64,000 nucleotides of DNA from an uncultured beta proteobacterium (GTDB lineage Bacteria; Pseudomonadota; Gammaproteobacteria; Burkholderiales; Burkholderiaceae): the NCBI GenBank assembly GCA_903826775.1, contig CAIKFU010000004.1:1-64000 (forward strand). Reading direction: 5' to 3'. The position numbers were made by a program, and so were the translations under genes. A model generated the notes under the pieces. That model made no database searches and was not told the DNA's origin. It saw only the letters and a list, made by a program, of their open reading frames with translations. Shown here one piece after another: positions 9,464 to 38,929 of this stretch. Within the stretch, counting starts at the first letter, position 1. Each line of letters begins with the position of its first letter.

Positions 9464-10129
9464 CTATTCCTTCTGGGGGTGGCAAAGCAACACCACCAAT
9501 TCACGTGGACCATGTGCACCATATGCGAGTGTTTGTTGAATATCCGCAGTCTTCGATGGGCCGCATACTAACAATGCGTTTGTTGGAAGGGCATCAACCC
9601 ATTTTTCTGAGGTCATTGCTGAAAAGAAGTCGGCATGAATATTGTTGGTATCGAGGAGGGCAAAATGGACGGAAGGAACGAGAGACATTAATCGCGGTTC
9701 GGAGCTGCTTGGCCAGAGAATTAAGCTGCCCACTTCGGCTATAGCTCCTCTTGCTCTTGTTAAGGAGGCGTCAATGCTGTCAAACAATTGGTTTTGCCAT
9801 TCATGAATAGGTTCTTTGTAATAAATTAACTCGATATTCGGGTTGCATTTTTCAAGAACTGCTCCGTGCTCTGTATCTGTGCCAATTAATAAGTTCTTTA
9901 AACCTTTAGATGCTAATATTTTTAAAAGAACTTCCGGCCATTCTTTATCGGTTGTTTCATAAACTTCTGTTTTAACTTCTTCAAGGGCTTTTCGTAATCT
10001 GGAAACCTTTAAGGATAGATCTTCATTCCGCCCATGTTTTGCGTACCAAGAAGAAACGTCTGGCAGTGGCGGCTTTTGAGAAACGGATGCACTCCGTAAA
10101 CAATTTAAAATACTTTCACGAGCCGTCAT
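9464..10129 (-). CDS. lutC: Lactate utilisation protein LutC
   Basis: About 221 residues of the LutC/YkgG (DUF162) family, third component of the non-flavin L-lactate oxidation complex. The family pattern is seen in RARGAIAEVGSLILWPSSSEPRLMSLVPSVH and the C-terminal CGPSKTADIQQTLAYGAHGPRE. The ATG at 10129 overlaps the lutA stop codon in an ATGA arrangement, so translation is probably coupled; this decides the start over the upstream ATG at 10156. It sits between lutA and lutB in the operon. Confidence 0.92.
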   Translation of the reverse strand: MTARESILNCLRSASVSQKPPLPDVSSWYAKHGRNEDLSLKVSRLRKALEEVKTEVYETTDKEWPEVLLKILASKGLKNLLIGTDTEHGAVLEKCNPNIELIYYKEPIHEWQNQLFDSIDASLTRARGAIAEVGSLILWPSSSEPRLMSLVPSVHFALLDTNNIHADFFSAMTSEKWVDALPTNALLVCGPSKTADIQQTLAYGAHGPRELVVLLCHPQKE

Positions 10130-10929: not shown

Positions 10930-11000
10930 TTCAGCCCCCTGTTATTGACATATTTTATGAATTTAAAATTGTAGTATCGAAACGCATTTTCCGTTGTTCA

Positions 11001-12659
11001 TTACTTAATAACCATCATGGTGAATGGCCAGACGTACGCTTGCATAGTCACAAAAATACCAACTAAGCAGGCCAAGGCAATGGAATGGAAAAATACATAG
11101 CGCAAAATATCGCCTTCATGATGGAACCAACGCGTAGCAGTTGAAGCAACCACAATAGATTGCGCATCAATCATTTTGCCCATGACGCCACCAGAGCTAT
11201 TGGCTGCCCCCATTAAGTTAGGGCTCAGACCAATTTGTTCTGCTGCTACTTTTTGCATTCCGCCGAATAAAACATTCGATGCGGTATCAGACCCAGTAAG
11301 AGCCACTCCCATCCAACCCATTAATGTCCCGAAAAATGGATAGAACACGCCAGTGGCAGCAAATGCTAAGCCCAAGGTGGTATCAAGTCCCGAATAGCGG
11401 GTAAGCGTACCCAAGCCCAACATCAATACGATGGTTAGCAAGGAGTAGCGTACTAACCAAATGGTGGTTACATAATTCTTGACCAATGACCATGGGTTAT
11501 ATTTCATTGCCAAACCGCCGATGATGGCGGCAAGCAAAATGCCTGAGCCTGTAGCGGATAGCAAGTTAAAGACATACACCGCACCTTCTTTGGTTGGCTT
11601 GGTTACCACTGGCGCCACTTTTTCTACAAGTTGATGCAATCCTTCAATTGGAAACTTTGGGGCAAAAAGACTATTTAAATAATCTTTGACTACTGGCAGA
11701 CCCCAAACAAAGACAAATACAGTCAGAATTACCCAGGGCATCCATGCGCGTATCACCTCTGATCTAGGGTAGGTAATTTTTTCCTGAGTAACCACTTCTC
11801 TTGATTCATCTTCTTTGTGACCTTTAAGAGAGGTTGATGTCCAAATTTCCTTTGGTTTCCATACTTTTAAAAACAGTACTAAGCAAGTCATGGAGGACAT
11901 TGCTGCGATTACATCAACCAATTCTGGTCCGATATAGTTAGAGACCAAAAACTGTGGAATTGCAAAAGATGCACCGGTGACCAATAATGCAGGCCAGATT
12001 TGCATCATCCCACGACGTCCAGCAAATGCCCAGATTAACCAAAATGGAACAATTAAGGAAAAGAGCGGTAATTGGCGGCCAACCATTGCAGAAATTGCCA
12101 TGAGATCATAACCATGTACTTTAGCCAAGGTTATGATTGGCGTGCCTAGCGCGCCATAAGCAACAGGTGCGGTATTGGCAATCAAGGATAAACCTGAGGC
12201 CGCGAGGGGAGAGAATCCCAATCCAATCAAGATTGCGGCCGTTACTGCAACAGGAGTACCAAAACCGGCCGCACCTTCAAAAAATGCACCAAAAGCAAAA
12301 GCAATTAACAATAGCTGCAAGCGACGATCTTCGGTAATGCCTGCAATCGAATTTTGCAATACTTTGAAAGAACCGTTTTTCTCGGTGAGTTGGTGTAGAA
12401 AGATAATGTTTAACACAATCCAACCGATCGGTAGTAAGCCGACCAGACCGCCGAGCATTGCTGCCTTGATTGCCATTTCAGTTGGCATGCCATACGCAAT
12501 GATGGCGATGAGCAGAGCGCTAAGTAGGCCAGCACCTGCTGCAATATGAGCCTTGAGATGTAAAAATCCTAGGCCAATTAACATCACCGCAACCGGGATG
12601 GATGCCACAAGAGTAGACAGCCACATGGTGCCTAAGGGGTTATATATTTGCTGCCACAT
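11001..12659 (-). CDS. lldP: L-lactate permease
   Basis: About 552 residues with many membrane segments, of the LctP/LldP lactate (and glycolate) permease family. Family sequences visible include FEGAAGFGTPVAVTAAILIGLGF, GWMGVALTGSDTASNVLFG and AANSSGGVMGKMIDAQSIVVAST. ATG 12659 is chosen because GGAGG lies 8 bases before it; an in-frame TTG at 12674 overlaps that ribosome site. It lies between the dld-type dehydrogenase and lutA, so uptake and both lactate oxidation systems are co-oriented. It would import D- and L-lactate by proton symport. Confidence 0.95.
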   Translation of the reverse strand: MWQQIYNPLGTMWLSTLVASIPVAVMLIGLGFLHLKAHIAAGAGLLSALLIAIIAYGMPTEMAIKAAMLGGLVGLLPIGWIVLNIIFLHQLTEKNGSFKVLQNSIAGITEDRRLQLLLIAFAFGAFFEGAAGFGTPVAVTAAILIGLGFSPLAASGLSLIANTAPVAYGALGTPIITLAKVHGYDLMAISAMVGRQLPLFSLIVPFWLIWAFAGRRGMMQIWPALLVTGASFAIPQFLVSNYIGPELVDVIAAMSSMTCLVLFLKVWKPKEIWTSTSLKGHKEDESREVVTQEKITYPRSEVIRAWMPWVILTVFVFVWGLPVVKDYLNSLFAPKFPIEGLHQLVEKVAPVVTKPTKEGAVYVFNLLSATGSGILLAAIIGGLAMKYNPWSLVKNYVTTIWLVRYSLLTIVLMLGLGTLTRYSGLDTTLGLAFAATGVFYPFFGTLMGWMGVALTGSDTASNVLFGGMQKVAAEQIGLSPNLMGAANSSGGVMGKMIDAQSIVVASTATRWFHHEGDILRYVFFHSIALACLVGIFVTMQAYVWPFTMMVIK

Positions 12660-12729
12660 GATGACTGCCTCCAAATCTTGTTGACTACATGGTTAAAATA
12701 AACTTCTGAAACAAAATACAAAAAAAATA

Positions 12730-15504: not shown

Positions 15505-15536
15505 TATGTTTCCTAATAATTTTAAATTTGGTAAAG

Positions 15537-15547
15537 TGGTATTACCA
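15537..15547. promoter_or_regulatory. FadR/LldR-type operator, dehydrogenase side
   Basis: TGGTATTACCA is a perfect palindrome fitting the TGGT-N3-ACCA operator known for LldR/PdhR regulators. It lies 33 bases upstream of the dehydrogenase TTG start. A 21-base context (15530-15550) recurs at 15657-15677 with two differences. Confidence 0.75.
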
Positions 15548-15663
15548 ATATATGAATAATGCTATAGAATAATTTACCTGTAGGCACTTAGTAGATACCC
15601 GATAAATAGAAAATATTTATCGGTAGTAGATAAAGTTTTGATTAAAATCAATTAATAGTAAAG

Positions 15664-15674
15664 TGGTAATACCA
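15664..15674. promoter_or_regulatory. FadR/LldR-type operator, regulator side
   Basis: TGGTAATACCA, the reverse complement of the first site, lies directly before the regulator's ATG at 15678. This position suggests autoregulation by blocking transcription. Two sites 127 bp apart, centre to centre, would allow looping across the divergent promoters, as in the E. coli lldPRD system (inference). Confidence 0.72.
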
Positions 15675-15677
15675 ATA

Positions 15678-16430
15678 ATGACAAAAAACCTTCATACAAA
15701 TATTCGGATATCCGATCGTGTTGTAAAAATTTTGGAAGTGCAGATCTTGGAGGGCTCATTAAAGCCAGGAGAAGCCCTCCCTTCGGAGCGCGATCTGGCA
15801 ATAGAGATTGGCGTGTCAAGGCCAACCATTCGAGAAGCCATACGTTCCTTAGTTTCGAGAGGCATGTTGGCTACACGCCATGGTGGGCGCACCGTTGTGA
15901 CGGATAAGTTGGATTCTACTTTTATAGATTCTTGGCAAGAAATGCTGCTGAATCATCCAAATATCCAAAATGACTTATTAGAGTTTCGTCATATCCTTGA
16001 AGGACAAGCAGCCTTTTTTGCCGCTCAAAGGGCGACAGAAATAGACTTAATCAATTTGGATGCAGCTCATGAAAAACTGGTGCTTGCCTATGATGGTGGG
16101 GACCTTAGGAAATCAATTGATGCGGATGTAGCATTTCATCAGGCAATTGCGGAGGCTTCTCATAATGTGTTGATTGGCCATTTATCATCCTCATTATTCA
16201 AATTGATTAATGGTCATGTGACTAAAAACCTCGAGTTTTTGCACACTCGACCTGTTCAATGGAAGATGCTGGAAAAACAGCATTACGCAATATGGCAGGC
16301 AATTCGCGAACACCAGCCTGAGAGTGCTTTGAAAGCCGCTAGTGGCCATATTGAATTCGTTATTGAAAACATGAAAACCAATGCCCAAGTTAATGAACGA
16401 CTTCAAAGCGCTATTCGTCGCCTTGCTTAA
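15678..16430 (+). CDS. FadR-subfamily GntR regulator of lactate genes
   Basis: About 250 residues. The N-terminal winged helix has the GntR signature (PGEALPSERDLAIEIGVSRPTIREAIRSL), and the C-terminal part is an all-helical FCD ligand domain (LEFRHILEGQAAFFAAQRAT). It is divergent from the lactate operon, and both start regions carry matching TGGT-N3-ACCA palindromes, so it is probably an LldR-like regulator responding to lactate. Start: ATG 15678 or GTG 15663. Neither has a clear Shine-Dalgarno sequence, and the GTG would put the operator inside the gene, so I prefer the ATG. PdhR and GlcC are related alternatives, made less likely by the neighbours. Confidence 0.88.
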   Translation: MTKNLHTNIRISDRVVKILEVQILEGSLKPGEALPSERDLAIEIGVSRPTIREAIRSLVSRGMLATRHGGRTVVTDKLDSTFIDSWQEMLLNHPNIQNDLLEFRHILEGQAAFFAAQRATEIDLINLDAAHEKLVLAYDGGDLRKSIDADVAFHQAIAEASHNVLIGHLSSSLFKLINGHVTKNLEFLHTRPVQWKMLEKQHYAIWQAIREHQPESALKAASGHIEFVIENMKTNAQVNERLQSAIRRLA

Positions 16431-16527
16431 TACTTTACCTAAATCCTTTTGCTATTTGGTTTTTAAGTTGCTTTGCAATAAAATAAGTAGTAATATCTAG
16501 GTATAAACCCTAGTTATGGAGTAATAA

Positions 16528-16692
16528 ATGATCCACTTTAGAAACCTAATCACCAATATATTTTCCAGTTTGAGTCAGAGTAGCGACTTAGAGTCTTATA
16601 TCTGTAGTCACAACCCCAAATCGCATTCTGAAATTGAAGAGTTAAGTCGGCATTACTTGTATGAAGGCGACTATCGGGGTATTGGATCCTAA
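16528..16692 (+). CDS. Small 54-residue conserved-looking protein
   Basis: A 54-codon frame with a good ribosome site (GGAG seven bases before the ATG) and a strong terminator shortly after it, so probably a real monocistronic gene. The peptide starts MIHFRNLITNIFSSLSQSSD and contains DLESYICSHNPKSHSEIEEL, then a Tyr-rich end (HYLYEGDYRG). The pattern DLE-x2-I-x4-NP-x4-EIE resembles small proteins I associate with Burkholderiales genomes, but I cannot name a family. No signal peptide or membrane segment. Confidence 0.6.
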   Translation: MIHFRNLITNIFSSLSQSSDLESYICSHNPKSHSEIEELSRHYLYEGDYRGIGS

Positions 16693-16718
16693 ACACGATC
16701 AATCCGCTTGATGATAGA

Positions 16719-16742
16719 TGAGGTTCCTAGAGCCTCATTTTT
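16719..16742 (+). terminator. Rho-independent terminator
   Basis: TGAGGTTC and GAGCCTCA form an 8-bp stem with one G-U pair and a 3-base loop, followed by TTTTT. It lies 27 bases after the small 54-residue gene. Confidence 0.8.
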
Positions 16743-16807
16743 AGAATAAAACGGTGATTGATAGTCGGTAGCTGTAGTAATTGCAATTCGGGTGTTTAGT
16801 TGGCAGC

Positions 16808-17311
16808 TTAATGAGAGATAAATTTTTCCATTATGTAGTCATCCATCGCAAATCCGTTTCCAATATCTTGAATAATGGACGATGTAATTTGATAGCCATA
16901 TTTCAAATACGCTTTAATGGCTTTGGAATTTAATTTATTGACACGTAAAACAATACGTTGATGGGAATTGGAGGCGGCGTAAAGGTCAATAGTATCCATT
17001 AGTAATTTTCCTACGCCTTGATTTTGGAATTCAGAAAGCACGTACAGTTTATCGAGTTTTAGCTTGTTTGGTGATTCGGGTTGTATGTGAGTGTATCCGA
17101 TGGGCAGTTCATTGCATTTTGCAACCCAGATTTTGCCTCCTTGGGCAATTTGATTTCTTAATGCATTCGGGTTGTAAGCCCTATCAATCATATAAAGCAT
17201 TTGCTCTTGAGAAATGATGTTTTGATAAGTGCTTGGCCAAATGGTTTCCGCCAAGTTTTTCAAACACTCAACCTCGAAATCTTTGAGAAGTTGAATCGTG
17301 ACTTTATTCAT
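16808..17311 (-). CDS. GNAT family N-acetyltransferase
   Basis: A 167-residue GNAT-fold protein. The acetyl-CoA binding motif A is visible as LYVLSEFQNQGVGKLLMDTI, and the later LRVNKLNSKAIKAYLKYGYQ is the usual C-terminal strand and helix. It would transfer an acetyl group from acetyl-CoA to an amine; the substrate cannot be predicted. It is transcribed alone, convergent with the small gene and downstream of the hydrolase on the same strand with a 75-base gap that holds an inverted repeat. Confidence 0.88.
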   Translation of the reverse strand: MNKVTIQLLKDFEVECLKNLAETIWPSTYQNIISQEQMLYMIDRAYNPNALRNQIAQGGKIWVAKCNELPIGYTHIQPESPNKLKLDKLYVLSEFQNQGVGKLLMDTIDLYAASNSHQRIVLRVNKLNSKAIKAYLKYGYQITSSIIQDIGNGFAMDDYIMEKFISH

Positions 17312-17342
17312 TCTCCGAAATTATGTATAAATATATATTGCG

Positions 17343-17375
17343 AATACTTGGACCAGCTTTTCTGCTCCAAGTATT
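17343..17375 (-). terminator. Hairpin after the alpha/beta hydrolase gene
   Basis: AATACTTGGA and TCCAAGTATT form a perfect 10-bp stem 11 bases after the hydrolase stop codon. The following T-run is weak on both strands, so it may be a weak terminator or an RNA-stabilising hairpin. Confidence 0.5.
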
Positions 17376-17386
17376 TCTGTTAAAAA

Positions 17387-18610
17387 TTAATCGGCAGGTT
17401 GATTTTTTTTCCACCCAGATTGTTCAAGCAGTCGAAGTTCCCATGGAATGATAACTTGGGAAAAAATGACGGGATCAGTCCAACCTTTTGCTTCCCTTCC
17501 CAAATGCCCGCCAGATGGATTGATCCAAAATTCCTTTGGAACATCACCTGAACTCATGAGTATTTGCAATTCTGGAAGAAGCACTTGGGTATCATTAGCG
17601 CCTCCAATCACCAGCATAGGTGCTGTGGGCTTATTTAACAGACCTTGAGCTCTAAGCGACATTGAGGGTGCAAATTTAAGTAGGTCGGCTTTTGTACGTA
17701 CGCCTTCATAGATAAAAATTGTGGCGGGTAAGTAATCAAATAGGTATTCTTTAGTGTAAATCCTGCTGCTAATAAATTGAGGGTCAAATGTTTTATCGAT
17801 AGGAGGGGATTGCGCTACAGATCCAAGTAGGCGATCTTTTTCAGTTATCGCAAGCTTGGCCGCCCAGTAGCCTCCAAAACTGACACCGGAAGCAATAATT
17901 CTATTTTTATCGATATTTGGCATTTGAGTTATATAGTCCAAAGCCGCAGAAAACATCCTGTTGGCAGTTGGGCTTGCTTTTATGGGGGCTTGACCAGTGC
18001 CTGGGCTATCCAAGACAAATATGGCAACGCCATATTTGAGAATTTCCCCATAGCTATCAGCTACAGTTTCTTTTCGGCTATCTAGACCACTAAATGCAAA
18101 AATAAGAGGGACTGGGCCGTTGATTTTTTTGGGCATGCGAAGGTACCCAATGATCTCTTTGCCTTCAAAAGGAATTTTTACAACCGTAAGAGGTGGGTCG
18201 AAATTTTTTGCATAATTTAAATAAGCTGCGATCGCATTATTGTAGGCGATTTGTTTTTTTGGAGAAGTGGGCGCTGGCCATTGCGCAAAATAATAAAGGC
18301 GCCAAGCTTTTTTATACAAAGCACTGGCTTTTTCGGGGTCCGTAGCTTGCTTGGCTTGATCCACGTATTTATCTGCAATCGCGCTCCAACCAGTCGCCCA
18401 ATCATCGGGATTTCGTGTAGGAACCTTATCCAGCGCATCGCGGACATCCTGAATATTTAGGCCGCCCAGTGGATAAGCTCCGCGTTCGGCTCGAAGCAAG
18501 GATTCAGCCTTGACCTCTTCAATATTGCGATCGCGGTTTTGGGCATGTATGGACAACTGAAAGAAGCTGAAAAAGATAATTCCTAGAAAAACCTTATTTC
18601 TCAATGTCAT
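17387..18610 (-). CDS. Secreted alpha/beta hydrolase (FrsA/DUF1100-like)
   Basis: A 407-residue protein with an N-terminal signal peptide (hydrophobic about 7-21, ending near IHAQ). The C-terminal two thirds is an alpha/beta hydrolase with the nucleophile elbow GVSFGGYWAAK, preceded by VLDSPGTGQAP and followed by a late His in PSGGHLGREAKG. The N-terminal helical cap (residues about 30-140, WSAIADKYVDQAKQ, KAWRLYYFAQWP) is typical of FrsA-like esterases. It probably hydrolyses an ester in the periplasm; the substrate is unknown. A cytoplasmic relative with similar architecture lies at 48134-49363. It is divergent from the molybdenum hydroxylase genes. Confidence 0.85.
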   Translation of the reverse strand: MTLRNKVFLGIIFFSFFQLSIHAQNRDRNIEEVKAESLLRAERGAYPLGGLNIQDVRDALDKVPTRNPDDWATGWSAIADKYVDQAKQATDPEKASALYKKAWRLYYFAQWPAPTSPKKQIAYNNAIAAYLNYAKNFDPPLTVVKIPFEGKEIIGYLRMPKKINGPVPLIFAFSGLDSRKETVADSYGEILKYGVAIFVLDSPGTGQAPIKASPTANRMFSAALDYITQMPNIDKNRIIASGVSFGGYWAAKLAITEKDRLLGSVAQSPPIDKTFDPQFISSRIYTKEYLFDYLPATIFIYEGVRTKADLLKFAPSMSLRAQGLLNKPTAPMLVIGGANDTQVLLPELQILMSSGDVPKEFWINPSGGHLGREAKGWTDPVIFSQVIIPWELRLLEQSGWKKNQPAD

Positions 18611-18953
18611 TTTTGTCTCAATTCATGTTTATTGTTAATTAAATTAGCGGTTGAAGTTTTAGTTAAATTTACATTCAAAGAATTCCATAACCGTCATTTT
18701 TAATGAGACTATACCGTTAAGGCAATATTTCTTCCAGCCTCAAATTACCTCTAATGAGTAATTTATAACCATTTAAATTTAAGCATTTGATTGGAATGCG
18801 AATATATACGGATATTTTCTAGGGTAGAAATCGTTGGGTTAGAGTAAACACCTATATTGATATGCTAACCATTCATTTACCTTAACCTACTTATAAGTAT
18901 GCAGAACATTGTATTTTGCATTCAAGGTAATTTTGTATGTAAAGGGGAGGCAG
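18611..18953. other. Divergent intergenic region
   Basis: About 340 bases between the hydrolase and the molybdenum hydroxylase genes. No coding frame that I can support was seen. It should hold the two divergent promoters; no specific operator was recognised. Confidence 0.5.
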
Positions 18954-28877: not shown

Positions 28878-29729
28878 ATGGTTAATTTCAGTCAATTTTT
28901 GTTAGAACGAGGTAATTTTAATGAAACTGATATCGAGAATTGTTTTTTTGATGCCAACTTTCAGGAGTCTGAATTTTTAGCATTTGTTGATTCATTGTTA
29001 GCGATTCCACTCTGGAAAAATGCACAGGACCATCAGGGGTATTACAAGAAGGCTTGTCGTATTTTGAGTAAGGCTGCGGATGATTTTGCTAGATTCAATG
29101 CAAATGAACCCCCTTATCATTCCCGCTCTCATTTTAAAGACGTATGTCTGGGGGTTTCCATTTTATTGCAATATCAAGATCCAGGCGATGTCTCTAGTCT
29201 TGATTTTAAGGATGATGATGCCTGGGTATTGTTGTTGTCTGCTATAGGGCATGATTTCGGCCACAACGGTTCAGTAAACAGATGCCCATTTGAGTTAGAA
29301 CTTCAATCAATTGAGTACGTTAAGAGAATTCTATTAACATCTGAATTACCAACGTCATTTGCAAATAAGTTAATTGATCGCATGAAACCCATAATTCTTG
29401 CCACTGATCCAACTTGCATTAAGAAAGTATTTAATGCTTATAGCGATGATGATAAAAATACCCCCTTTTCTTTGGGCAATTACCTAAACGTGTTAATCAT
29501 TGAGGCAGACCTTATGGGCAGCACATTACCGACCTATGGGGAAAAATTATCTCAAAAATTAAGCAAGGAGTGGTTGGTTGAAAATAGTGACCAAGCTATT
29601 TTTATTGCTACAACAAAAGGCCGCTTTAACTTTTTAAACAGTTTTCAATTCATAAGTCCAGCAGCGCAACGCATTGGATTGGAAGTTATGCGTAAAAAAA
29701 TTGCCTGGAAGTTAAATGAAATAATTTAG
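28878..29729 (+). CDS. HD phosphodiesterase resembling class I cyclic nucleotide PDEs
   Basis: About 283 residues. Metal-binding residues follow the eukaryote-type class I PDE signature: YHSRSHFKDV, then GHDFGHNGSVN (the HD-x2-H-x-G-x2-N motif), then ILATDPT and an Asp in IEADLMGS. These patterns correspond to YHN-x2-H-x2-DV, HD-x2-HPG-x2-N, ILATDM and the fourth metal Asp. It should hydrolyse cAMP or cGMP. ATG 28878 is preferred to the in-frame TTG at 28848, though neither has a strong ribosome site. It converges on the chemoreceptor gene, in a locus that also encodes an adenylate cyclase and a cNMP-binding channel, which strongly suggests it closes that circuit. Confidence 0.78.
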   Translation: MVNFSQFLLERGNFNETDIENCFFDANFQESEFLAFVDSLLAIPLWKNAQDHQGYYKKACRILSKAADDFARFNANEPPYHSRSHFKDVCLGVSILLQYQDPGDVSSLDFKDDDAWVLLLSAIGHDFGHNGSVNRCPFELELQSIEYVKRILLTSELPTSFANKLIDRMKPIILATDPTCIKKVFNAYSDDDKNTPFSLGNYLNVLIIEADLMGSTLPTYGEKLSQKLSKEWLVENSDQAIFIATTKGRFNFLNSFQFISPAAQRIGLEVMRKKIAWKLNEII

Positions 29730-29760
29730 GTGCTAATAGAGTGGTTACTATTCACAATCT

Positions 29761-31389
29761 CTAACTAAGTTCAAATAGTGAAACCAAGCTCTTTAGCTTT
29801 GCTGAAACTTTAGCAAGTTCAGAGGACGATTTTTGTATTTCAGCAGAACCTTCTGTGATGCTTTTAGACGCATGAGCAACAGACTGTATAGTATCGGTTA
29901 TGGTAGCCGAGCTGGATGCCGAAGAGGATATGCTTCTAGATATTTCCCCAACGGTTACAGCCTGCTCCTCAACGGCTGCGGCAATGATGTTAGAAATATC
30001 ATTGACCTTGTTGATAATTTGAGTAATCTCAACAATGGATTGGATTGCGCTATTGGCATCGGATTGAATTACATTAATTGACTGACCAATTTCATTAGTT
30101 GCTTTAGCAGTCGATCTAGCCAAATCTTTCACCTCATTGGCTACCACTGCAAATCCCTTACCTAGTTCTCCTGCACGCGCAGCTTCAATAGTTGCGTTTA
30201 AAGCAAGTAAATTTGTTTGTTCGGCAATGCCCGAGATTACATTGAGTATTTGGCCAATTTGTACGCTGCTATTACGCAGTTTCTCCATTTGTGCATTAGT
30301 CTTGCTAGCGATTTGAACTGCTAGATTGGAGACTTTGGACGCCTCAGAAGCATTAATGGAAATTTCGCGAATACTTGCTCCGAATTCTTCGGTAGAAGTT
30401 GCTACCACTTGTGTATTTCGGCTAACCAAGTCGGATGATTTAGCAACCTCATTTGCCTGTACCGAGGTTTCTTCTGCGCTACTGCTTAATTGGGCACTTA
30501 CTACAGCAAGCTCTTCAGAGGAGCTGCTAATGATTAATGCGTTATCACTTATTTCTCGAATGGCATTGCATAGGTTGCTTTGTAAAATCAGTATAGAGTT
30601 GGCAATATCCCCTACAACACCTTTATGGTCCGTCCCGGTGATGGTGCTATTTAGTTTGGATTTGGCTAAATCATTTATATAATTCTTTGTTTCATGAAGC
30701 GGAGAGATGATCATCTTTCTAACGGCAAGTGAAATTAAGAACCCTAAAAGCAAGCTAATGAATATAGCCGCTACAGTTATTATTGTTATATCTCTTTGGG
30801 TGTTTATTGCTTCCTCATAACGAGATTGAGCGCTATTTAACTTGAGATCGATAAATTTATTTAAAGGTTTTAAAATATTAAGCCTAAGATTTTCAAGAGA
30901 ATTTTCTCCTGTGTACTTAGAATTGATATTGATAGAATTTTTTTCCTGATTTGCTAACTGATTAATTGCATCAAAATAGATATCTATATTTTTGGATATT
31001 TCATTAAACTGATCTCTGACCACTTGCCTACTAATTGTTTTTTCAATTTCAGCAAGAGTTTTTCGAATAGTTAGCTTAGATTGTTCAATATGTTTAATGG
31101 ATTCTTCTTTAATTTGAATAGAACCTTCAATTTTTTGAGGACCTGAATTGGCAAGGATCTGGTTTAAATTCGAATCAAGAATATATATTTCGGATTTCAG
31201 GTCTTTTGCAACGCTTATTCCCAGGGTGCTTTGATAGTAGAGCCAAGTTGAATCTTTGGCCATAATTTGATACCCATAAATTGAAATCGCGCCGATAATC
31301 AACGTAAAACATGAAATAAGGGCAAAACCGATTATGAGCTTTGTTTTTACTGTTTGTTTTTCTAAATTAAGGAATAATGAGGTAAACAT
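29761..31389 (-). CDS. Methyl-accepting chemotaxis protein
   Basis: A 542-residue transmembrane receptor. TM1 lies at about 17-38 and TM2 at about 200-222, with a helical periplasmic domain of about 160 residues between them (four-helix-bundle type). HAMP follows, then the signalling domain with the hairpin tip [30 protein letters not shown] pairs for methylation by CheR are plausible in the flanking helices. There is no C-terminal NWETF-type CheR tether. It is divergent from cheA (132-base gap), so receptor and kinase probably share control. Its ligand is unknown. Confidence 0.93.
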
Positions 31390-31521
31390 TTAATTGAAGG
31401 TCCAGGTTGTGCTTTATTAATCCCAAATTTTGTAAATTTGCTGCTTTTTTATTAATCCAAATTCGGTTACATTTTCATTTTATCGTTGTTAAGTTAACAA
31501 TGTCCATTAGTATGGTCGAGT

Positions 31522-33846
31522 ATGCAAAATAATGCTGAAATCTTATCTGAATTTACAATAGAAGCCAGGGAAATCCTCGATAAGCTCGATGAGGACTTCA
31601 CCTATTTTGAGCAGAATCCAGAGGATACCAAATTAATAGGGAATATCTTTCGTGCGCTGCACACGCTAAAGGGTAGTAGTGGGTTTTTTGCTTTTAAACG
31701 ACTTGAAAAAATTTCCCATGCTGGAGAATCCCTCCTAGGTAAGCTTCGAGATGGCCAGTTGAGGCTAAATTCAACGATAATCGAAAAATTACTTCAAAGC
31801 ATCGATGTGCTAAGGGCCATTATTGAGGGCATAGAAACCAATCAGCTGGAGCCTGTTGGTGATGATCAAGAGTTAATTGATGAATTGAAATTATTGACCA
31901 AAAACGGTCAATTCGAGGATCACAGAGATCCTATTGAAAACAACGGGAAGCATCTGGATAAATCGCCATTCCCTTCAAGTCAATTGGTAACGGAATCCAA
32001 AGCCACTCCAGATGATGACACCAACGACCCAACTTCGGATAGCCTAGATAGCATGGAGGGTGTAAGTGATTTAATGCAGGTTGCTGAAATATCTTTTCAA
32101 GGTGGGGGCTATGAGATGGGCTCTGATTCGTCCATTTCAGTTAGAAATGCGGATTTTAATGCCCCAGTTAAAGTTAATCTTGAAACCCTAGACAGACTCA
32201 TGAATTTAACGGGTGAAATGGTGCTCGCAAGGAATAGATTACTTCCTTTCGCGAATACTATCGAAGATGTCAATTTCTCACAAACTGTTAGAAGTATCGA
32301 TTTGCTTACTTTGGAATTGCAGGAGCGCATGATGAAGATGCGCATGCAGCCTATTTCCCAGGTGTGGTCAAAATTTCCAAGGTTGGTGCGGGATATATCT
32401 ACTCAATGTCATAAAAAAGTAAATTTGATTCAAGTCGGCGCTGAGACGGAATTGGATAAAACATTATTGGATGGTATTCGCGATCCATTGATCCACATTA
32501 TTAGAAATAGCGTTGACCATAGCATTGAGTTACCAAACGCTCGCCTTGCAAAAGGAAAGCCCGAAACTGCAAGCATAATTTTGCGCGCCGCACATCAAAA
32601 TGGCATGGTGGTGATTGAAATTGCTGACGATGGGGCTGGTATTGATTTTGATCGGGTCAGGATGCGCGCTATTGAAAGAGGACTTTTGAGCACTGAATTA
32701 GCGCCAAACATATCTAATAAGGAATTGGTAGAGTATATTTTTCTACCTGGATTTTCAACCAAAGAATCGGTAACCAATCTCTCAGGAAGGGGGGTTGGGA
32801 TGGATGTGGTAAAGAATAATATTGCCAATATAGGTGGCTCCATTGAAATTTCAAGCGAAGCTGATTTGGGCGTAAATATTAAATTAAAGATCCCTCTCAC
32901 ATTGGCAATCATGCCGGCTTTATTAGTGAAGTCTGAATCTGAAATTTATGCCATTCCACAAAATCGTATTTTAGAGTTAGTTCAAATTAATTCCTCTAGC
33001 GAGTCACCGCGTTTTGAAGACTTTCATGGAACTACGGTATTTCGATTGCGAGATAAGTTAGTCCCTTTATTATTTTTAAATGAACAGCTTGGCCTAGGTG
33101 TAAGGCAGGATGGTCAAAGCATATCTTCTAACATCGTTATATTGCATGCAGGACTTGTGCAATTTGGATTGGTTGTTGAATCAGTACTGAATATTCAAGA
33201 CGTCGTGGTGAAACCCATGGGTCCTTTATTAAAGGGGCTTCCTATTTTTGCTGGCGCAACAATTTTGGGTTCTGGACGGGTAAGTTTAATTATCGACATA
33301 GATGGCATTGCTATGCTGTCTGGTTTAGTTGAGAAAATAGAGGCTAATCCAATTAATCAAGTGGTCATTCAACAGCCCATTGAGGAACGCAAAGTACCAA
33401 TGCTTTTATTTGAAATTGCGGGCTTAGAAAAGATGGCAATTCCTTTGGAGAGAGTTGAGCATATCATCATGCTTGATATTAACTCCATTCAAAAAAATGG
33501 TAGTAAAGATGTTATTTTTTATCAAAACAAAGTAGTTGATGTAGTTTGGTTAAATAGATATGTAAGCGGGGGTAACCCACAGGCTAGCTTTAGTCAACAT
33601 GCTATCCCCGTATTCATTTGCCATGCTAATCAAAAATACTATGCATTGGTTGTTCATCGCGTCTTTGATATTGTGCAAATGCCAGAGAAGGTATACGAAC
33701 TAGCATCGCCACAACGGGGTCTTTTAGGGTGCGGTATCTTCAATGATGTTGTTGTCAATATAGTCGATCTTGAAGAAATACTCATGCTGCACAATTTTTA
33801 TGATACCTCCGTAGTCTACCCAAAAGTGGTGGACCTTGATGGTTAA
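31522..33846 (+). CDS. cheA: Chemotaxis-type histidine kinase CheA with tandem CheW-like domains
   Basis: A 774-residue kinase. The HPt domain has the phospho-His in RALHTLKGSSGFFAF (His47). A linker of about 100 residues lacks an obvious P2 domain. P3 dimerisation is at KVNLETLDRLMNLTGEMVLARNRL. The P4 ATPase boxes are IIRNSVDHSIE, DDGAGIDFDRVR and GFSTKESVTNLSGRGVGMDVVK. The P5 CheW-like domain follows, then a second CheW-like region (about 625-765, LLFEIAGLEKMAIPLERVEHI). The extra CheW module is unusual. It starts the operon cheA-cheW-cheB-cheR-cyclase. With no cheY nearby, its phosphate most likely goes to CheB and the receiver-cyclase. Confidence 0.93.
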   Translation: MQNNAEILSEFTIEAREILDKLDEDFTYFEQNPEDTKLIGNIFRALHTLKGSSGFFAFKRLEKISHAGESLLGKLRDGQLRLNSTIIEKLLQSIDVLRAIIEGIETNQLEPVGDDQELIDELKLLTKNGQFEDHRDPIENNGKHLDKSPFPSSQLVTESKATPDDDTNDPTSDSLDSMEGVSDLMQVAEISFQGGGYEMGSDSSISVRNADFNAPVKVNLETLDRLMNLTGEMVLARNRLLPFANTIEDVNFSQTVRSIDLLTLELQERMMKMRMQPISQVWSKFPRLVRDISTQCHKKVNLIQVGAETELDKTLLDGIRDPLIHIIRNSVDHSIELPNARLAKGKPETASIILRAAHQNGMVVIEIADDGAGIDFDRVRMRAIERGLLSTELAPNISNKELVEYIFLPGFSTKESVTNLSGRGVGMDVVKNNIANIGGSIEISSEADLGVNIKLKIPLTLAIMPALLVKSESEIYAIPQNRILELVQINSSSESPRFEDFHGTTVFRLRDKLVPLLFLNEQLGLGVRQDGQSISSNIVILHAGLVQFGLVVESVLNIQDVVVKPMGPLLKGLPIFAGATILGSGRVSLIIDIDGIAMLSGLVEKIEANPINQVVIQQPIEERKVPMLLFEIAGLEKMAIPLERVEHIIMLDINSIQKNGSKDVIFYQNKVVDVVWLNRYVSGGNPQASFSQHAIPVFICHANQKYYALVVHRVFDIVQMPEKVYELASPQRGLLGCGIFNDVVVNIVDLEEILMLHNFYDTSVVYPKVVDLDG

Positions 33847-34273
33847 CAGTGACTTTGATGCAAGTTATTTAACCTTTTCGTTAGGGGGTCGCTCTTTCGG
33901 GATACCCGCCGCTTCTGCATTGGAAATTAATCGTAATCTAGATTACACAATTGTGCCAAATGCCCCAAAATTAATTCGGGGCATTTTAAATTTACGAGGG
34001 CAGCTTATCCCTGCTATTGACATGAGAAGCATTTTAGGTGATGGCGGGGATAATCATCAACCGGAGTCTGTCGGCATCATTGTCGATCTTGGATCAACTA
34101 AAGCGTCTCTATTGGTTGATAGCGTTGGCGATATTATTCCGCTTGGAGGGCTTACTTTCGAGCCTCCACCCCCTAATTTTCCTTTACAGGGGAGGCGGGC
34201 TATCGTTGGCGCCCACAAATTAGCAGACTCCCTACTAATAATTCTTGACCCAAAATTATTGGTTACAGATTAG
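33839..34273 (+). CDS. cheW: Adaptor protein CheW
   Basis: A 144-residue single-domain CheW that links receptor and kinase. Typical segments are YLTFSLGGRSFGIPAASALEI, IRGILNLRGQLIPAIDMR and LVDSVGDIIPL. The ATG at 33839 overlaps the end of cheA by eight bases, so translation is coupled. It would be the stand-alone adaptor next to the two CheW-like domains in CheA. Confidence 0.92.
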   Translation: MVNSDFDASYLTFSLGGRSFGIPAASALEINRNLDYTIVPNAPKLIRGILNLRGQLIPAIDMRSILGDGGDNHQPESVGIIVDLGSTKASLLVDSVGDIIPLGGLTFEPPPPNFPLQGRRAIVGAHKLADSLLIILDPKLLVTD

Positions 34274-34328
34274 TAAAACACTAACGATCGCTTTATTTTT
34301 TTAAAAACTTTCTAAGTTAATATAAACA

Positions 34329-35420
34329 ATGCTTCAACAATTAAATAACCATAAAAAAATTCGAATACTGATTGTTGACGATTCTGCAGTAGTCCGTCGG
34401 ATTCTCTCAACAGTTATTTCCGATCAAACTGATATGGAAGTGGTTGGAACTGCAACCAATGGATTGCTGGGAATCGAGTTTATTCGTAAACAAGTTCCAG
34501 ATTTGGTTATTTTAGATATTGAAATGCCAGTAATGGATGGTATTTCTGCTTTAAAAGAAATTCGTAAATTTAACTCGCATTTGCCAATTATTATTTTTAG
34601 CTCCCTCACTCAGAAGGGTGCTTTAGTAACAATCGATGCCTTAACTAATGGTGCTAGCGATTATCAATCAAAACCCTCAAATATTAGCGACTTTGAAAGT
34701 GCCTTAATCGAAATACGCGAAAACCTGATCCCAAAAATTAGGACATTATGTGCGCCCAATATTGTTGCGACAAGGGACTTGTTATCTAGATCTGATGTGA
34801 AAATCCCCTTTGCTAAACACCATCAAACTACTTTGACTAAGGGCAAAATTGAAGCAGTATGTATTGGCGTTTCAACAGGCGGACCAGCTGCATTAATGTA
34901 TATGTTTGAGGAATGGAAGAACCCATTGACAGTTCCAGTATTAATTGTTCAGCATATGCCACCTAAATTCACTGAATTTTTGGCTAAACGATTATCTGAT
35001 ATTGGGGTTATCCCCGTTGAGGAGCCGTATGACGGACAAGAAGTCTTACCCGGGAAGGCCTACATAGCTCCAGGTGGAATGCATATGGGGGTGAATAGAG
35101 TCGGTAAAAATGTTTATATTGAATTAAATGATGGCCCATTGGAAAACTCTTGTCGTCCAGCGGTAGATGTGTTGTTTAGAACCGCTGCAAATACATATGG
35201 ACCAAATTTATTAGCGGTGGTACTCACCGGAATGGGATCGGACGGATTAAAAGGAGCAGTGGAAATTCATCATCATCACGGTAGGATTATTGCTCAAGAT
35301 GAAGAATCTAGCGTAGTTTGGGGTATGCCAAGAGCAGTTGTAAATGCCAATCTGGCCGAAAAAATTCTCCCGTTAAAAGATATTCCTAGTGAAATATTGA
35401 GGCAGGTATTGAGTTCATGA
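34329..35420 (+). CDS. cheB: Receptor methylesterase/glutamine deamidase CheB
   Basis: A 363-residue protein with an intact receiver domain (phospho-acceptor Asp63 in LVILDIEMPVMDG) joined to a methylesterase domain. The catalytic triad is visible as Ser182 (GVSTGGP), His209 (VQHMPP) and Asp305 (GMGSDGLKGA). It removes methyl groups from receptors to adapt signalling. Its last bases overlap the cheR start (ATGA). Confidence 0.95.
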   Translation: MLQQLNNHKKIRILIVDDSAVVRRILSTVISDQTDMEVVGTATNGLLGIEFIRKQVPDLVILDIEMPVMDGISALKEIRKFNSHLPIIIFSSLTQKGALVTIDALTNGASDYQSKPSNISDFESALIEIRENLIPKIRTLCAPNIVATRDLLSRSDVKIPFAKHHQTTLTKGKIEAVCIGVSTGGPAALMYMFEEWKNPLTVPVLIVQHMPPKFTEFLAKRLSDIGVIPVEEPYDGQEVLPGKAYIAPGGMHMGVNRVGKNVYIELNDGPLENSCRPAVDVLFRTAANTYGPNLLAVVLTGMGSDGLKGAVEIHHHHGRIIAQDEESSVVWGMPRAVVNANLAEKILPLKDIPSEILRQVLSS

Positions 35421-36259
35421 AAATCAACATAATTCCAGAAAAGGGAGTACTTGACATCTTTTTTCAGATGGTTAAGGGGAATATTGGTTTAGTCTTGGAT
35501 GAGAGCAAGTTGTACTTATTGGAGGCACGCTTAAACCCTTTAGCCAAAAAAAATGGCTTCAATGGTTATGCTGAATTGATTTCAAATTTAATCATTCGGC
35601 CGCTAGGAGAGTTGCATTGGGATGCGTTTGAAGCCTTATTGACTAATGAAACTATGTTTTTTCGTGACGAATATTTTTTTAAAGGTTTAACCCATTTTCT
35701 TTTGCCTGAGTTAATTAAGAAAAATAGGCTTAGTAAGGAATTAAATATTTGGTGCACTTCCGTTTCAACCGGCCAGGAGGTCTATAGTCTTGCAATGATC
35801 TTACAAGACCACTTTCCCGAGTTGTCAAATTGGAATTTGCAACTTAAGGCAACCGATGTTTGCAAGACTGTACTTAAAAAGGCGGAAGAAGGAATTTTCA
35901 GCGAATCGGAAATTAAAAGGGGATTGACTCCATTGCAAATTCACAAACATTTTACGATGGTAGATGGCAAAGCAGTAGAGTACAAAATAAATGATAATTT
36001 AAAACAGTTAATCCAATTTGATCAAGTAAATCTTATAAAAGATCTGCCCATTTCCATGAAATACGATTTGATTTTAATGCGGAATGTTTTGATATATTTT
36101 TCAGCCGAAACTAAAATTCAGGTTTTATCAAAAATTTCATCTAATCTTAAAGATTCTGACAGCTGTTTATCGCTTGGTGCCTCCGAGTCCTTATTGTATG
36201 AAACGTGTTTTGATCGCTTTAGTGTAGATAGGTTAACCTTTTATAAAAAGAAACAATGA
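35417..36259 (+). CDS. cheR: Receptor methyltransferase CheR
   Basis: A 280-residue SAM-dependent methyltransferase. The N-terminal helical domain has the typical LTNETMFFRDEYFF, and the catalytic domain has IWCTSVSTGQEVYSLAMIL (the usual Ala-Gly of the SAM loop reads Val-Ser here), LKATDVCKTVLKKAEEG and DLILMRNVLIYF. It adds methyl groups to receptor glutamates. It overlaps cheB and the cyclase gene by four bases each, showing a coupled operon. Confidence 0.93.
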   Translation: MKINIIPEKGVLDIFFQMVKGNIGLVLDESKLYLLEARLNPLAKKNGFNGYAELISNLIIRPLGELHWDAFEALLTNETMFFRDEYFFKGLTHFLLPELIKKNRLSKELNIWCTSVSTGQEVYSLAMILQDHFPELSNWNLQLKATDVCKTVLKKAEEGIFSESEIKRGLTPLQIHKHFTMVDGKAVEYKINDNLKQLIQFDQVNLIKDLPISMKYDLILMRNVLIYFSAETKIQVLSKISSNLKDSDSCLSLGASESLLYETCFDRFSVDRLTFYKKKQ

Positions 36260-37407
36260 ATACTGGCGAGAATTCGATTTTAAGAGTACCTGGTGAAAAT
36301 ATTCACCAAATTAGTCCTGAGTTACTGGGAATGATTGAAGGTATGAAGGTTATGGTGGTTGACGATAGTCGAACCTTACGTAAATTGCTAATTAGGGAGC
36401 TGAATGGGATTGGCATAACAAATATATTGGAAGCGGTAGATGGTCTTGAGGCACTATCCTTGCTTCAAAAGGAGTCATTTGATCTAATGTTGTTGGATAT
36501 GGAAATGCCAGAATTGGATGGACTTGGCGTTTTAAGAAAAATTAAAGCTGACCAAAACTTGAGTTATCTACCTGTAATCGTAGTCTCTGGCGCTGAAGAA
36601 TTGGATAAAACCGTTGAATGCATTCAAATTGGCGCCGAAGACTATCTTCCTAAGCCATTTAACTCAATCCTTTTACGAGCCCGTGTTTACTCGTCATTAG
36701 AAAAAAAGAGATTGCGCGATATAGATGTGCAGCGAATGCAAGAGCTTAAAAACGAAAAGGAGCTTTTAGATATAGAGCAAATGAAAACTGAAAAGCTGAT
36801 GCTTAATATCTTGCCAAAGCCGATTGCTGAACGCTTAAAAAAGGGTGAAAAGAATATAGCCGGAAGTTATCCTGAATCAACCGTGTTATTTAGCGATTTA
36901 GTTGGATTTACTGCCATGTCTTCGCAAAAAAGTGCAAGTGAGTTGGTTACTTTGTTAAATAGCTTATTTACTCGATTTGATCTGCGTGCAGAGCAGTTGG
37001 GTCTTGAAAAAATTAAAACAATCGGCGATGCATATATGGCCGTTGGGGGAATTCCCATCCCAAGATCAGACCATGCGGAGATAGTTGCTGAAATGGCCAT
37101 AGGAATGTTCGAAGACTTAAAACAATTTAATATTGCCCATTCAATGAATTTAGAGATGAGGATAGGTATAAATTCAGGTCCGGTGGTTGCTGGCGTTATT
37201 GGGTTTACTAAGTTTTCATACGATTTATGGGGTAATACCGTTAATACTGCAAGTCGAATGGAGTCCACTTCTGTTAATGGCCGTATCCAGATTTCACCTT
37301 CATCCCAAGAGCTTTTAGCAAACAGTTATTTACTTGAGGAAAGAGGTCTTATGGAGTGCAAAGGCCTGGGGCAGATTACCACCTACTTTCTTAATGAAAA
37401 AAAATAG
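36256..37407 (+). CDS. Receiver domain-adenylate cyclase fusion
   Basis: A 383-residue response regulator with a class III nucleotide cyclase output. The receiver (about 30-150) is intact: Asp36/Asp37, acceptor Asp81 (LMLLDMEMPELDG), Ser111 and Lys133. A short coiled segment leads to the cyclase domain (about 205-380). Metal aspartates are Asp214 (FSDLVGFT) and Asp258 (TIGDAYM). The purine-selecting residues are Lys254 and Asp323 (SYDLWGN), the adenine set; guanylate cyclases have Glu and Cys. Asn330, Arg334 and Lys369 complete the site. It should make cAMP when phosphorylated by CheA. It is the last member of the overlapping che operon and takes the place a CheY would have. Confidence 0.93.
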   Translation: MNTGENSILRVPGENIHQISPELLGMIEGMKVMVVDDSRTLRKLLIRELNGIGITNILEAVDGLEALSLLQKESFDLMLLDMEMPELDGLGVLRKIKADQNLSYLPVIVVSGAEELDKTVECIQIGAEDYLPKPFNSILLRARVYSSLEKKRLRDIDVQRMQELKNEKELLDIEQMKTEKLMLNILPKPIAERLKKGEKNIAGSYPESTVLFSDLVGFTAMSSQKSASELVTLLNSLFTRFDLRAEQLGLEKIKTIGDAYMAVGGIPIPRSDHAEIVAEMAIGMFEDLKQFNIAHSMNLEMRIGINSGPVVAGVIGFTKFSYDLWGNTVNTASRMESTSVNGRIQISPSSQELLANSYLLEERGLMECKGLGQITTYFLNEKK

Positions 37408-37471
37408 ACATGTATTATTTTGTAAATTGTTTTTTGAATTAAATTTCATCAGTTAATCAGAGGAATTTGTT

Positions 37472-38929
37472 ATGAATCACCCAAAAATATTCGCCTTATC
37501 TAGGCCCCTCTGGTTGCTGTTGGTGCTATCAAATTTTGGATTTGCTTTTTGGTTAAATTCTAAATTTTCAACCTATTGGGGTTGGACTACCAGCCATCTA
37601 TCGGATGGAGTAGATCTGGCTAATGTTGATTTTTTGGCGATATTTCAATTTTTCTTATTTTCCTTTTCCTTGGATATGACCAATAGGAAGATGGCCGTTT
37701 CCTTTAATAAAAAATCAACAACGGGGCAAATCTCTGCCATTTTAGTTCAGACTATATCGGTTGGTATTTATTCGCTAGTTGGATTAATTGGATTTGTTTT
37801 AATCTACGACCGCTCGTTTAGCCATATATTGGCTGCAACAGGAGCAATAGGGGTAGGCGTGGCGTATGTTTTTCGAGAAATCATTGCCAATATCGTTGCT
37901 AGCATCCAAATACAAGCTGACGGACTCATCGGAATAAATGATTTTATTCAAACTTACCAGAATTCCTCAACCGAGATATATCAGGTTGTTCAATTGGATT
38001 ACAGTATGGTGATCTTACGCGATAAGTACGACTATCTAGTTCATGTTCCAAATCATACTTTTTTAAGTTGGAAGTATGTCAATGTTTCCAAGCAGCCAGG
38101 AAAGAGAGGATCAAGACGAAAGATAGATCTTGAAATCGGAACTCAAAACGATCCGGAGCGCGTTTTGCATATCTTAGAGTTGGCAATTAAGTATGTAATC
38201 AAAACAAATAAAGAATTTGATGATTGGCATGCGATTAGGGTGTCAAAACTAAATGAAGGTGTTCTGGTTTACATCATTGCTTATGAGTGCGATCCTGCAA
38301 TCAAAATGATTAGGTCGTCTGATATTGTCTTAAGAGCAGCGCTTCGCTTTATGAAGTCTGCTGGCTTTAATCTCAATACGGACGTTGAAATGACGCAACC
38401 GGATGAGGATGTAAATCATATTACTAAACGCTTACTAAACATCTCACGCATGGGGGTATTAAGATTTCTTGATGAAAGGCAAATTAATGAATTGGCTAAA
38501 TCTGTTTCAGTGGTTCAATGCGAGGAGGGTGACCACCTGATTAAGCAAGGGGACGCTGCAGATAGCATGTATTTTATTTCCGAAGGTAGTCTTGAGGTTG
38601 CCATTGCTGATGGTCGAAATAGCGAGATTGTGGTCGCTACATTGTGGCCTGGCGATTGTGTTGGCGAGATGTCACTGCTTACCGGTGAACCAAGATCAGC
38701 CAATGTAAAAGTTAAATCAAGCTCAACTATATTGCTGGAGTTAAAAAAAGCAGATCTTCAGCCGATATTTGAAAATAACCCTAAGTTGGTCGAACAAATT
38801 TCTTTTCTTTTAGCAACGCGTAAAGCAGCTAACGATAAGTTGCTTAATCAAGAAGAGGCCGAAGAATTGTTACGAAGTAGGGTTAAAGATTTTACAAAGA
38901 AAATTCTGAAGTTTTTCTTTAATAATTAA
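37472..38929 (+). CDS. MscS-family channel with C-terminal cyclic-nucleotide-binding domain
   Basis: A 485-residue membrane protein. Membrane segments lie at about 11-30, 50-68, 85-112 and the pore helix about 118-145 (ILAATGAIGVGVAYVFREIIANIVAS), followed by the MscS beta domain (about 150-210) and an alpha-beta region. The C-terminal 130 residues form a cNMP-binding fold with the phosphate-binding cassette GDCVGEMSLLTGEPRSANVK, holding the conserved Glu and Arg. This is the bacterial cyclic-nucleotide-gated (bCNG) type of MscS channel. It lies 64 bases after the receiver-cyclase on the same strand with its own AGAGGA ribosome site, so cAMP from that enzyme is the likely ligand. Confidence 0.92.
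   Translation: MNHPKIFALSRPLWLLLVLSNFGFAFWLNSKFSTYWGWTTSHLSDGVDLANVDFLAIFQFFLFSFSLDMTNRKMAVSFNKKSTTGQISAILVQTISVGIYSLVGLIGFVLIYDRSFSHILAATGAIGVGVAYVFREIIANIVASIQIQADGLIGINDFIQTYQNSSTEIYQVVQLDYSMVILRDKYDYLVHVPNHTFLSWKYVNVSKQPGKRGSRRKIDLEIGTQNDPERVLHILELAIKYVIKTNKEFDDWHAIRVSKLNEGVLVYIIAYECDPAIKMIRSSDIVLRAALRFMKSAGFNLNTDVEMTQPDEDVNHITKRLLNISRMGVLRFLDERQINELAKSVSVVQCEEGDHLIKQGDAADSMYFISEGSLEVAIADGRNSEIVVATLWPGDCVGEMSLLTGEPRSANVKVKSSSTILLELKKADLQPIFENNPKLVEQISFLLATRKAANDKLLNQEEAEELLRSRVKDFTKKILKFFFNN

Follow-up and report, generated by a model that had tools for sequence, protein, structure and literature searches.

A Wsp-like chemosensory locus predicted to couple a receiver-adenylate cyclase to an MscS-type channel with a cyclic nucleotide-binding domain

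Introduction

The Wsp system of Pseudomonas comprises a methyl-accepting chemotaxis protein (MCP), CheA, CheW, CheB, and CheR together with WspR, a REC-GGDEF output protein that works through cyclic di-GMP. Bacterial cyclic nucleotide-gated (bCNG) channels are defined by an MscS-superfamily pore with a C-terminal cyclic nucleotide-binding domain (CNBD). We know of no established physiology for channels of the bCNG type, and to our knowledge the outputs of many chemosensory systems with an alternative cellular function (ACF) have not been established either. Here we describe a locus at positions 28878 to 38929 of a 64,000-nucleotide stretch of DNA (the window; contig CAIKFU010000004.1, here C4, of assembly GCA_903826775.1, an uncultured beta proteobacterium). 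It encodes a chemoreceptor, CheA, CheW, CheB, CheR, a receiver-class III adenylate cyclase fusion (RecAC), an MscS-type channel with a CNBD, and a phosphodiesterase (PDE) homologue. With a probability of roughly 0.7, we interpret it as a Wsp-like ACF chemosensory system in which an adenylate cyclase serves as the output response regulator and cyclic AMP (cAMP) gates membrane transport.

As in Wsp, a full chemosensory operon is present and CheY is replaced by a receiver-nucleotide cyclase fusion. The output here is a class III adenylate cyclase (PF00211, 205 bits) and not GGDEF, and the locus additionally encodes a PDE homologue and a CNBD channel. Pil-Chp of Pseudomonas aeruginosa, which acts on CyaB, is likewise a chemosensory array controlling cAMP, but its cyclase is a separate protein and its output is the pilus, whereas here the cyclase is itself the response regulator and the genome search found no intact pilus ATPase. 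By analogy, animal olfactory transduction also unites a chemoreceptor, an adenylate cyclase, a cAMP-gated channel, and a PDE in one circuit; its receptors and pore are unrelated to those described here, where coupling would be by phosphotransfer and not by a G protein.

Response regulators that join REC to a mononucleotidyl cyclase have been reported in chemosensory clusters (Munoz-Martinez et al. 2012, PMC3447774), and the Che-to-cyclase architecture is therefore not new. Those ACF clusters likewise contain multidomain response regulators, nucleotide cyclases among them; they carry cheR-TPR genes, and the section of that paper devoted to them names no effector, whereas the CheR described here has no TPR match (Pfam) and a channel and a PDE are attached. 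By Pfam assignment of all genes, the locus has the ACF arrangement: a multidomain response regulator accompanies the che core and stands where CheY would be expected. A preliminary description of the locus had judged the complete wiring to look new. This novelty is anticipated in part: both the published REC-cyclase regulators and the similar Wsp logic are precedents for the front half. No description of the assembled circuit was found in the open-access PMC literature, the coverage of which is partial, making this weak evidence of absence. What the locus offers is a set of known families in a combination that we did not find described, with its own termination enzyme.

Results

Gene content of the locus

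The preliminary description had listed eight genes with no cheY nearby. All eight open reading frames were confirmed to be open, and the family assignments were borne out by Pfam:

28878..29729, + strand: PDE-like protein, class I (PDEase_I-like) homologue; ATG at 28878, frame open from TTG at 28848; PF00233, 23.2 bits
29761..31389, - strand: MCP, membrane chemoreceptor; Pfam 4HB_MCP_1 and MCPsignal; two hydropathy peaks
31522..33846, + strand: CheA kinase; Pfam Hpt, H-kinase_dim, HATPase_c, and two CheW stretches; no receiver
33836..34273, + strand: CheW coupling protein (Pfam); overlaps cheA
34329..35420, + strand: CheB receiver-methylesterase (Pfam)
35417..36259, + strand: CheR methyltransferase (Pfam); 4-base overlap with cheB
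36256..37407, + strand: RecAC, receiver-class III adenylate cyclase; Pfam receiver and Guanylate_cyc (PF00211, 205 bits)
37472..38929, + strand: MscS-type channel with C-terminal CNBD (bCNG architecture); PF00924, 26.0 bits, and PF00027, 70.5 bits

CheA has one Hpt match (Pfam), and CheB and RecAC supply the only receivers at the locus, which confirms that no cheY is near. Because the genes from cheA to the channel gene, which starts 64 bases past RecAC, run in the same direction and either overlap or are separated by no more than 64 bases, they probably form a single operon. The MCP gene points away from cheA and toward the PDE gene. Promoter-like sites in the sequence were no more frequent than in shuffles (30 versus a mean of 36.7), terminator-like sites numbered 14 versus 9.5 (standard deviation of 3.0), and neither was used. 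In NCBIfam the PDE-like protein had no match, and the other locus proteins had none above a curated cutoff.

Conserved residues of the cyclase, channel, and PDE-like protein

The preliminary description had also assigned all catalytic residues to the cyclase, and they are indeed present. Residues D36, D37, D81, S111, and K133 of the receiver and D214, D258, K254, D323, N330, and R334 of the cyclase domain do not vary in any of the 33 aligned RecAC rows. We take the cyclase residues to be the two metal-binding Asp, the transition-state Asn and Arg, and, in K254 and D323, the adenine-selecting pair, so that RecAC has the residue set of a class III adenylate cyclase in every row. Its cyclase domain aligns with both halves of solved mammalian adenylate cyclases (AC5 and AC9) and its receiver with PleD and CheY.

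The channel has five hydropathy peaks between residues 6 and 147. PF00027 was matched by 33 of 33 rows of the family alignment and PF00924, the MscS beta-domain, by 27 of 33. The cyclic nucleotide-binding cassette is GEMSLLTGEPRSANV, in which E399 and R408 are invariant in the 33 rows. Among solved structures, the matches of the family profile included PKG, the regulatory subunits of PKA, CRP, and a CNG potassium channel. The protein thus has the bCNG architecture of an MscS pore and beta domain followed by a CNBD, and its gating by a cyclic nucleotide is a prediction. It shares this pore and domain order with the bCNG channels described previously (Caldwell 2010, Malcolm 2012); what differs here is a genome context that ties the channel to a sensor, a cyclase, and a PDE, from which a physiology can be predicted. 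A tblastn search of plasmids with the channel returned 79 records, every one below 60% identity.

All 19 rows in the alignment of the PDE-like family match PF00233 (PDEase_I) at E values up to 0.001, and H91, H95, H135, D136, H139, and D221 (numbered from 28848), which we take to be metal ligands, are kept in 19 of 19 rows. The family profile found solved PDE5, PDE9, and PDEB1 with E values of about 1e-5. The family therefore has both the metal ligands of an HD domain and the PDEase_I profile, with the window protein itself falling 1.6 bits below the Pfam gathering score of 24.8. Predicted structures were unusable both for the PDE-like protein with one relative and for the channel alone (mean predicted local distance difference test score of 38.6 in each case). 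As a side observation, PDE homologues occur within a few kilobases of other, larger class III cyclases in genomes G025, G103, G173, G112, and G125 (by coordinates; G numbers denote the Polynucleobacter genomes compared and L numbers denote loci); an example is L047:9481-10440 with L047:6757-9030. This suggests a reusable cyclase-PDE module.

Copy numbers in the genome of the window

The window lies on contig C4 of a 2.56-Mb Polynucleobacter assembly (138 contigs, 99.9% complete). Family searches of this genome, which for cyclases covered class III, found one class III cyclase, RecAC, one MCP, and seven CNBD proteins, namely the channel and six others. The CheW-family search matched only the CheA and CheW of the locus, giving one CheA. 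The cassette pattern GE..RxAxV is carried by the channel alone and is absent from the six other CNBD proteins. Receiver matches numbered 19, only one of which lies in a frame of fewer than 200 codons: a 166-residue protein (174-codon open frame) on contig C48, beside histidine-kinase genes. No intact ATPase of the PilB/PilT type (T2SSE) was found; in this genome, T2SSE is represented by a single truncated piece, a 116-residue PilB-like end, so the type IV pilus motors that accompany Pil-Chp were not seen. This piece (L279:1483-1833, contig C138) lies beside PilC-like and prepilin-peptidase-like genes, named from their translations, which suggests decaying type IV pili. With a single cyclase, MCP, and CheA, one cassette-bearing CNBD protein, and no intact pilus ATPase found, this context weakens the obvious alternatives. 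The genome of one Polynucleobacter strain has been described as lacking motility and chemotaxis (PMC3308952).

Co-occurrence of the components in Polynucleobacter

We searched 186 Polynucleobacter genomes for the channel, CheA, RecAC, PDE, and any class III cyclase and cross-tabulated the results; the Fisher values below ignore shared ancestry. CheA was present in 29 of 33 genomes with RecAC versus 3 of 153 without (P = 2.5e-26), the channel in 27 of 33 versus 24 of 153 (P = 4e-13), and the PDE in 23 of 33 versus 18 of 153 (P = 4e-11). Co-occurrence in related genomes, which the preliminary description had proposed as a check, was thus found for RecAC with all three partners. Any class III cyclase was present in 45 of 51 genomes with the channel versus 27 of 135 without (P = 7e-18), and the association persisted outside the RecAC genomes (18 of 24 versus 21 of 129, P = 2.7e-8).

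The RecAC set (n = 33) omits G067, G025, and G203, which have partial or 42% relatives, and keeps G168, represented by a 120-residue end piece at the edge of a contig. The channel set (n = 51) was picked by eye, keeping matches to 2.4e-19 and the fragments in G077, G085, G023, and G179 and dropping CNBD-only matches in other proteins. The CheA set (n = 32) omits genomes with remote matches only (G062, G034, G065, G130, G139, and G008). The four RecAC genomes without CheA (G028, G105, G168, and G204) are 74 to 85% complete. Among channel genomes without RecAC, G111 and G208 are 100% complete and have remote channel homologues (21%), and G182 is broken at contig ends within its che genes. The cultured genus member P. 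nymphae has RecAC and the channel, with CheA at a distance.

Gene order and exchange of CNBD partners

Within 10.5 kb of the 33 RecAC loci, some of which end at contig edges, cheB and cheR were found at 29, cheA at 23, and the PDE gene at 12. The channel was found at 15 and another CNBD protein at 5 more, giving 20 with any CNBD. The channel lies directly 3' of RecAC in the window, G001, G072, G152, G167, G207, and G168, and 3' of RecAC after an MCP gene in G180. It lies 5' of the Che operon together with the PDE gene in G149, G141, G138, and G128, and 5' of the operon in G166, G022, and G028, where the PDE was not on the piece seen. A PDE and a free CNBD protein are near RecAC in G100, G164, and G132, and G064 has a PDE and an Ion_trans-CNBD gene near RecAC with the channel just beyond. 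On the channel tree, which omits the edge fragments of G001, G022, G166, G180, and G207 and in which 12 of 33 rows were labeled as linked by hand, the linked state changes at least 6 times. Within one genus, the parts are conserved as a set while their order varies.

The preliminary description had put the locus forward as a candidate self-contained circuit. The parts do co-occur, but 13 of the 33 RecAC loci, several of them ending at contig edges, have no CNBD protein within 10.5 kb, and CheA is present but unlinked from cheB-cheR-RecAC in G090, G128, and G177 (in G128 it sits with an MCP and CheW). The channel is encoded elsewhere in 10 of the 13 genomes with no CNBD near RecAC.

The cassette is present in 7 of 7 free CNBD proteins encoded near RecAC or a RecAC-like gene, and the Ion_trans-CNBD proteins of G090 and G177 have a variant of it. 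The Ion_trans-CNBD gene adjoins the channel gene in G064, G090, G106, and G177. Pfam was run on the L231 copy only, and the other three were assigned by length and a weak CNBD match. The partner genes are as follows:

L231:7953-9206: Ion_trans and CNBD (CNG/HCN-like) channel gene
L230:1528-2781: Ion_trans and CNBD (CNG/HCN-like) channel gene
L232:4768-6021: Ion_trans and CNBD (CNG/HCN-like) channel gene
L260:14303-15577: Ion_trans and CNBD (CNG/HCN-like) channel gene
L262:13138-15276 and L262:15291-17708: SulP-STAS-CNBD transporter after RecAC in G164, and its neighbor (Pfam)

The SulP-STAS-CNBD gene of G164 adjoins one for an 805-residue protein with flagellin N and C domains; the CheA search showed no second, flagellar-type CheA in this genome. 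Four genomes, all of which also have RecAC, contain MCP-CheA-CheW sets with no adjoining cheB, cheR, or response regulator:

L269:5993-8215: MCP-CheA-CheW set
L270:6216-8423: MCP-CheA-CheW set
L271:5459-7687: MCP-CheA-CheW set
L272:5462-7666: MCP-CheA-CheW set

The window CheA groups with these stand-alone sets in a within-group CheA tree that carried long-branch warnings, and the sets may feed RecAC in trans.

Other neighbors were noted at single loci or by size. RecAC adjoins a UPF0114 membrane protein in G149 (L256:4550-5101, Pfam), and genes for 176 to 188 residues at the equivalent place in G141, G186, G204, G105, G166, G128, and G022 are alike by size only. An alpha-acetolactate decarboxylase gene adjoins the MCP gene in G064 (L260:12279-12980, Pfam); the gene after the channel in G168 (L223:1899-2600) encodes first residues similar to those of this decarboxylase.

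Relatives outside the genus

The wider survey covered the best 80 RecAC loci in named genomes; more exist, and many loci end at contig edges. Five of the 80 (L056 to L060) have a RecAC that is 72 to 74% identical, with adjoining che genes. Because L056 and L059 are the contigs of G176 and G090, neither was used in the trees or counted among the loci; L060 was also not counted. Among the other 75, a CheA match within the locus was found in two, L085 and L088 (Microcoleus), and CheB and CheR matches were found in L122. CNBD matches occur in L057, L086, and L090, and a PDE match occurs in L090. The MscS part of the channel was matched at none of the 80 loci; its linkage with a CNBD to Che-RecAC is therefore shown only within Polynucleobacter. 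L085 carries a che operon and a convergent RecAC (9704-18725, 57% identical) and is recorded as Akkermansia muciniphila, a label that looks doubtful.

In L090 (Burkholderiales), a large PAS-rich gene resembling a hybrid kinase, a RecAC relative, a PDE relative, and short CNBD-like genes lie together; in G025 and G203, a RecAC relative and a free CNBD protein are accompanied by a kinase-like gene. In both arrangements, the predicted gene products amount to this messenger module with another kind of kinase in charge.

Discussion

In the circuit that we propose, a 4HB chemoreceptor, reset by CheR/CheB methylation, would control CheA via CheW. CheA would phosphorylate the RecAC receiver and so alter, upward or downward, the synthesis of a nucleotide that is presumably cAMP. 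This cAMP would bind the CNBD of the MscS-type channel encoded in the same operon and alter ion or solute flux, and the class I-like PDE would terminate the signal. The channel is the predicted main cAMP target in its own genome because it is the only CNBD protein there with the cAMP-type cassette that was searched for. The physiological output may be osmotic adjustment, a change in membrane potential, or solute release. Co-occurrence and genome context support this reading of the locus, which was also that of the preliminary description, with phosphotransfer, cAMP synthesis, and gating as predicted steps.

The combination recurs across the genus in rearranged form and therefore exceeds chance. 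The chief argument for an output in the form of a cyclic nucleotide that acts mostly at the membrane is that the CNBD partners, several of them membrane proteins, swap around a constant Che-RecAC core. A broader proposal, for which we consider the chances about even, is that the array sets the osmotic or electrical state of the cell, which would be a new class of chemosensory output: a response regulator makes the cAMP that gates an MscS-type channel or, perhaps, in sister species, a CNG-like channel or SulP-type transporter. The effector would then be exchangeable and cAMP-gated membrane transport the general theme.

Several observations weigh against the proposed circuit, among them the shared ancestry that the Fisher values ignore and the 13 RecAC loci with no CNBD protein nearby. 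No CNBD effector was found in RecAC genomes G105, G204, and G186, all less than 85% complete, and no PDE was detected in 10 of the 33 RecAC genomes. The channel occurs without RecAC in 24 genomes, 6 of which show no class III cyclase at all (G076, G111, G208, G155, G179, and G182); G076 is 99% complete and has both the channel and the PDE. The Ion_trans-CNBD proteins of G106 and G064 and the SulP-STAS-CNBD protein of G164 do not contain the cassette pattern in its strict form. The PF00233 score of the PDE-like protein lies under the cutoff, and the purine-selecting (purine-clamp) Gln is not clear at its expected place in the 19-row alignment; the protein is a putative cyclic nucleotide phosphodiesterase. 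The copy numbers come from an assembly in 138 contigs and, for cyclases, from a search confined to class III.

Che-RecAC signaling could be real while cAMP mainly reaches a CRP-like regulator or another receptor, the channel opening under tension as an osmotic valve, with cAMP as no more than a modulator. The genome encodes six further CNBD proteins, 18 of the 33 RecAC loci have no channel within 10.5 kb, and one bCNG channel, Ss-bCNGa, is tension gated according to titles cited in PMC4560390. We consider this unlikely, since none of the six has the cassette, the distribution of the channel in the genus follows that of class III cyclases, and some channel-less loci carry other CNBD proteins; a second CRP-type cAMP receptor was set aside as the leading interpretation on the first of these grounds. 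It is also conceivable that a chemosensory operon with a cyclase and an osmotic channel are functionally separate neighbors, adjacent by an accident of gene order. The channel is indeed more than 10.5 kb away or on another contig in 12 of the 27 genomes with both (barely outside in G064), but in the other 15 it lies within 10.5 kb, in several positions, in genomes of about 2 Mb. The changes of linkage on the channel tree and the co-occurrence of RecAC and the channel across the genus also make an accident very improbable.

Two borrowed outputs seem to us more improbable still. In a Pycsar-like anti-phage defense, the cyclase would make a cyclic pyrimidine nucleotide, and leakage through the CNBD channel would kill the infected cell. 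Pycsar itself pairs a PycC cyclase with a CNBD-TIR or CNBD-TM effector. PADLOC matched RecAC to PycC (51.5 bits) and the channel CNBD to PycTIR (71.6 bits), but these matches are confined to the shared cyclase and CNBD domains, for which reason such a defense was not retained as the leading interpretation, and Pfam found no TIR domain. The presumed adenine-selecting pair, K254 and D323, is invariant in 33 of 33 rows and aligns with AC5, and the Pycsar systems described are not known to include a receptor array with adaptation enzymes or a PDE. Control of surface motility through cAMP and type IV pili would follow Pil-Chp, a known cAMP-raising chemosensory system, and PilC-like and prepilin-peptidase-like genes and the PilB-like end piece do remain on contig C138. 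This has hardly any likelihood either: T2SSE is matched in the genome by a single truncated piece, the locus has no CheY-type receiver or multi-Hpt CheA, and for want of an intact ATPase among the genes found, a pilus output was rejected as the leading interpretation.

The cAMP-gated membrane transport circuit that we favor would bring together sensor, kinase, messenger, effector, and terminator at one locus of a small genome, with one copy found of each. Given these single-copy parts and the cultured members of the genus, the path from stimulus to conductance is testable. If correct, the circuit would explain why a receptor that adapts by methylation is kept where no intact pilus motor was found and no CheY lies beside the che genes, and it suggests that a freshwater bacterium may sense its surroundings to change the permeability of its membrane and not to swim.

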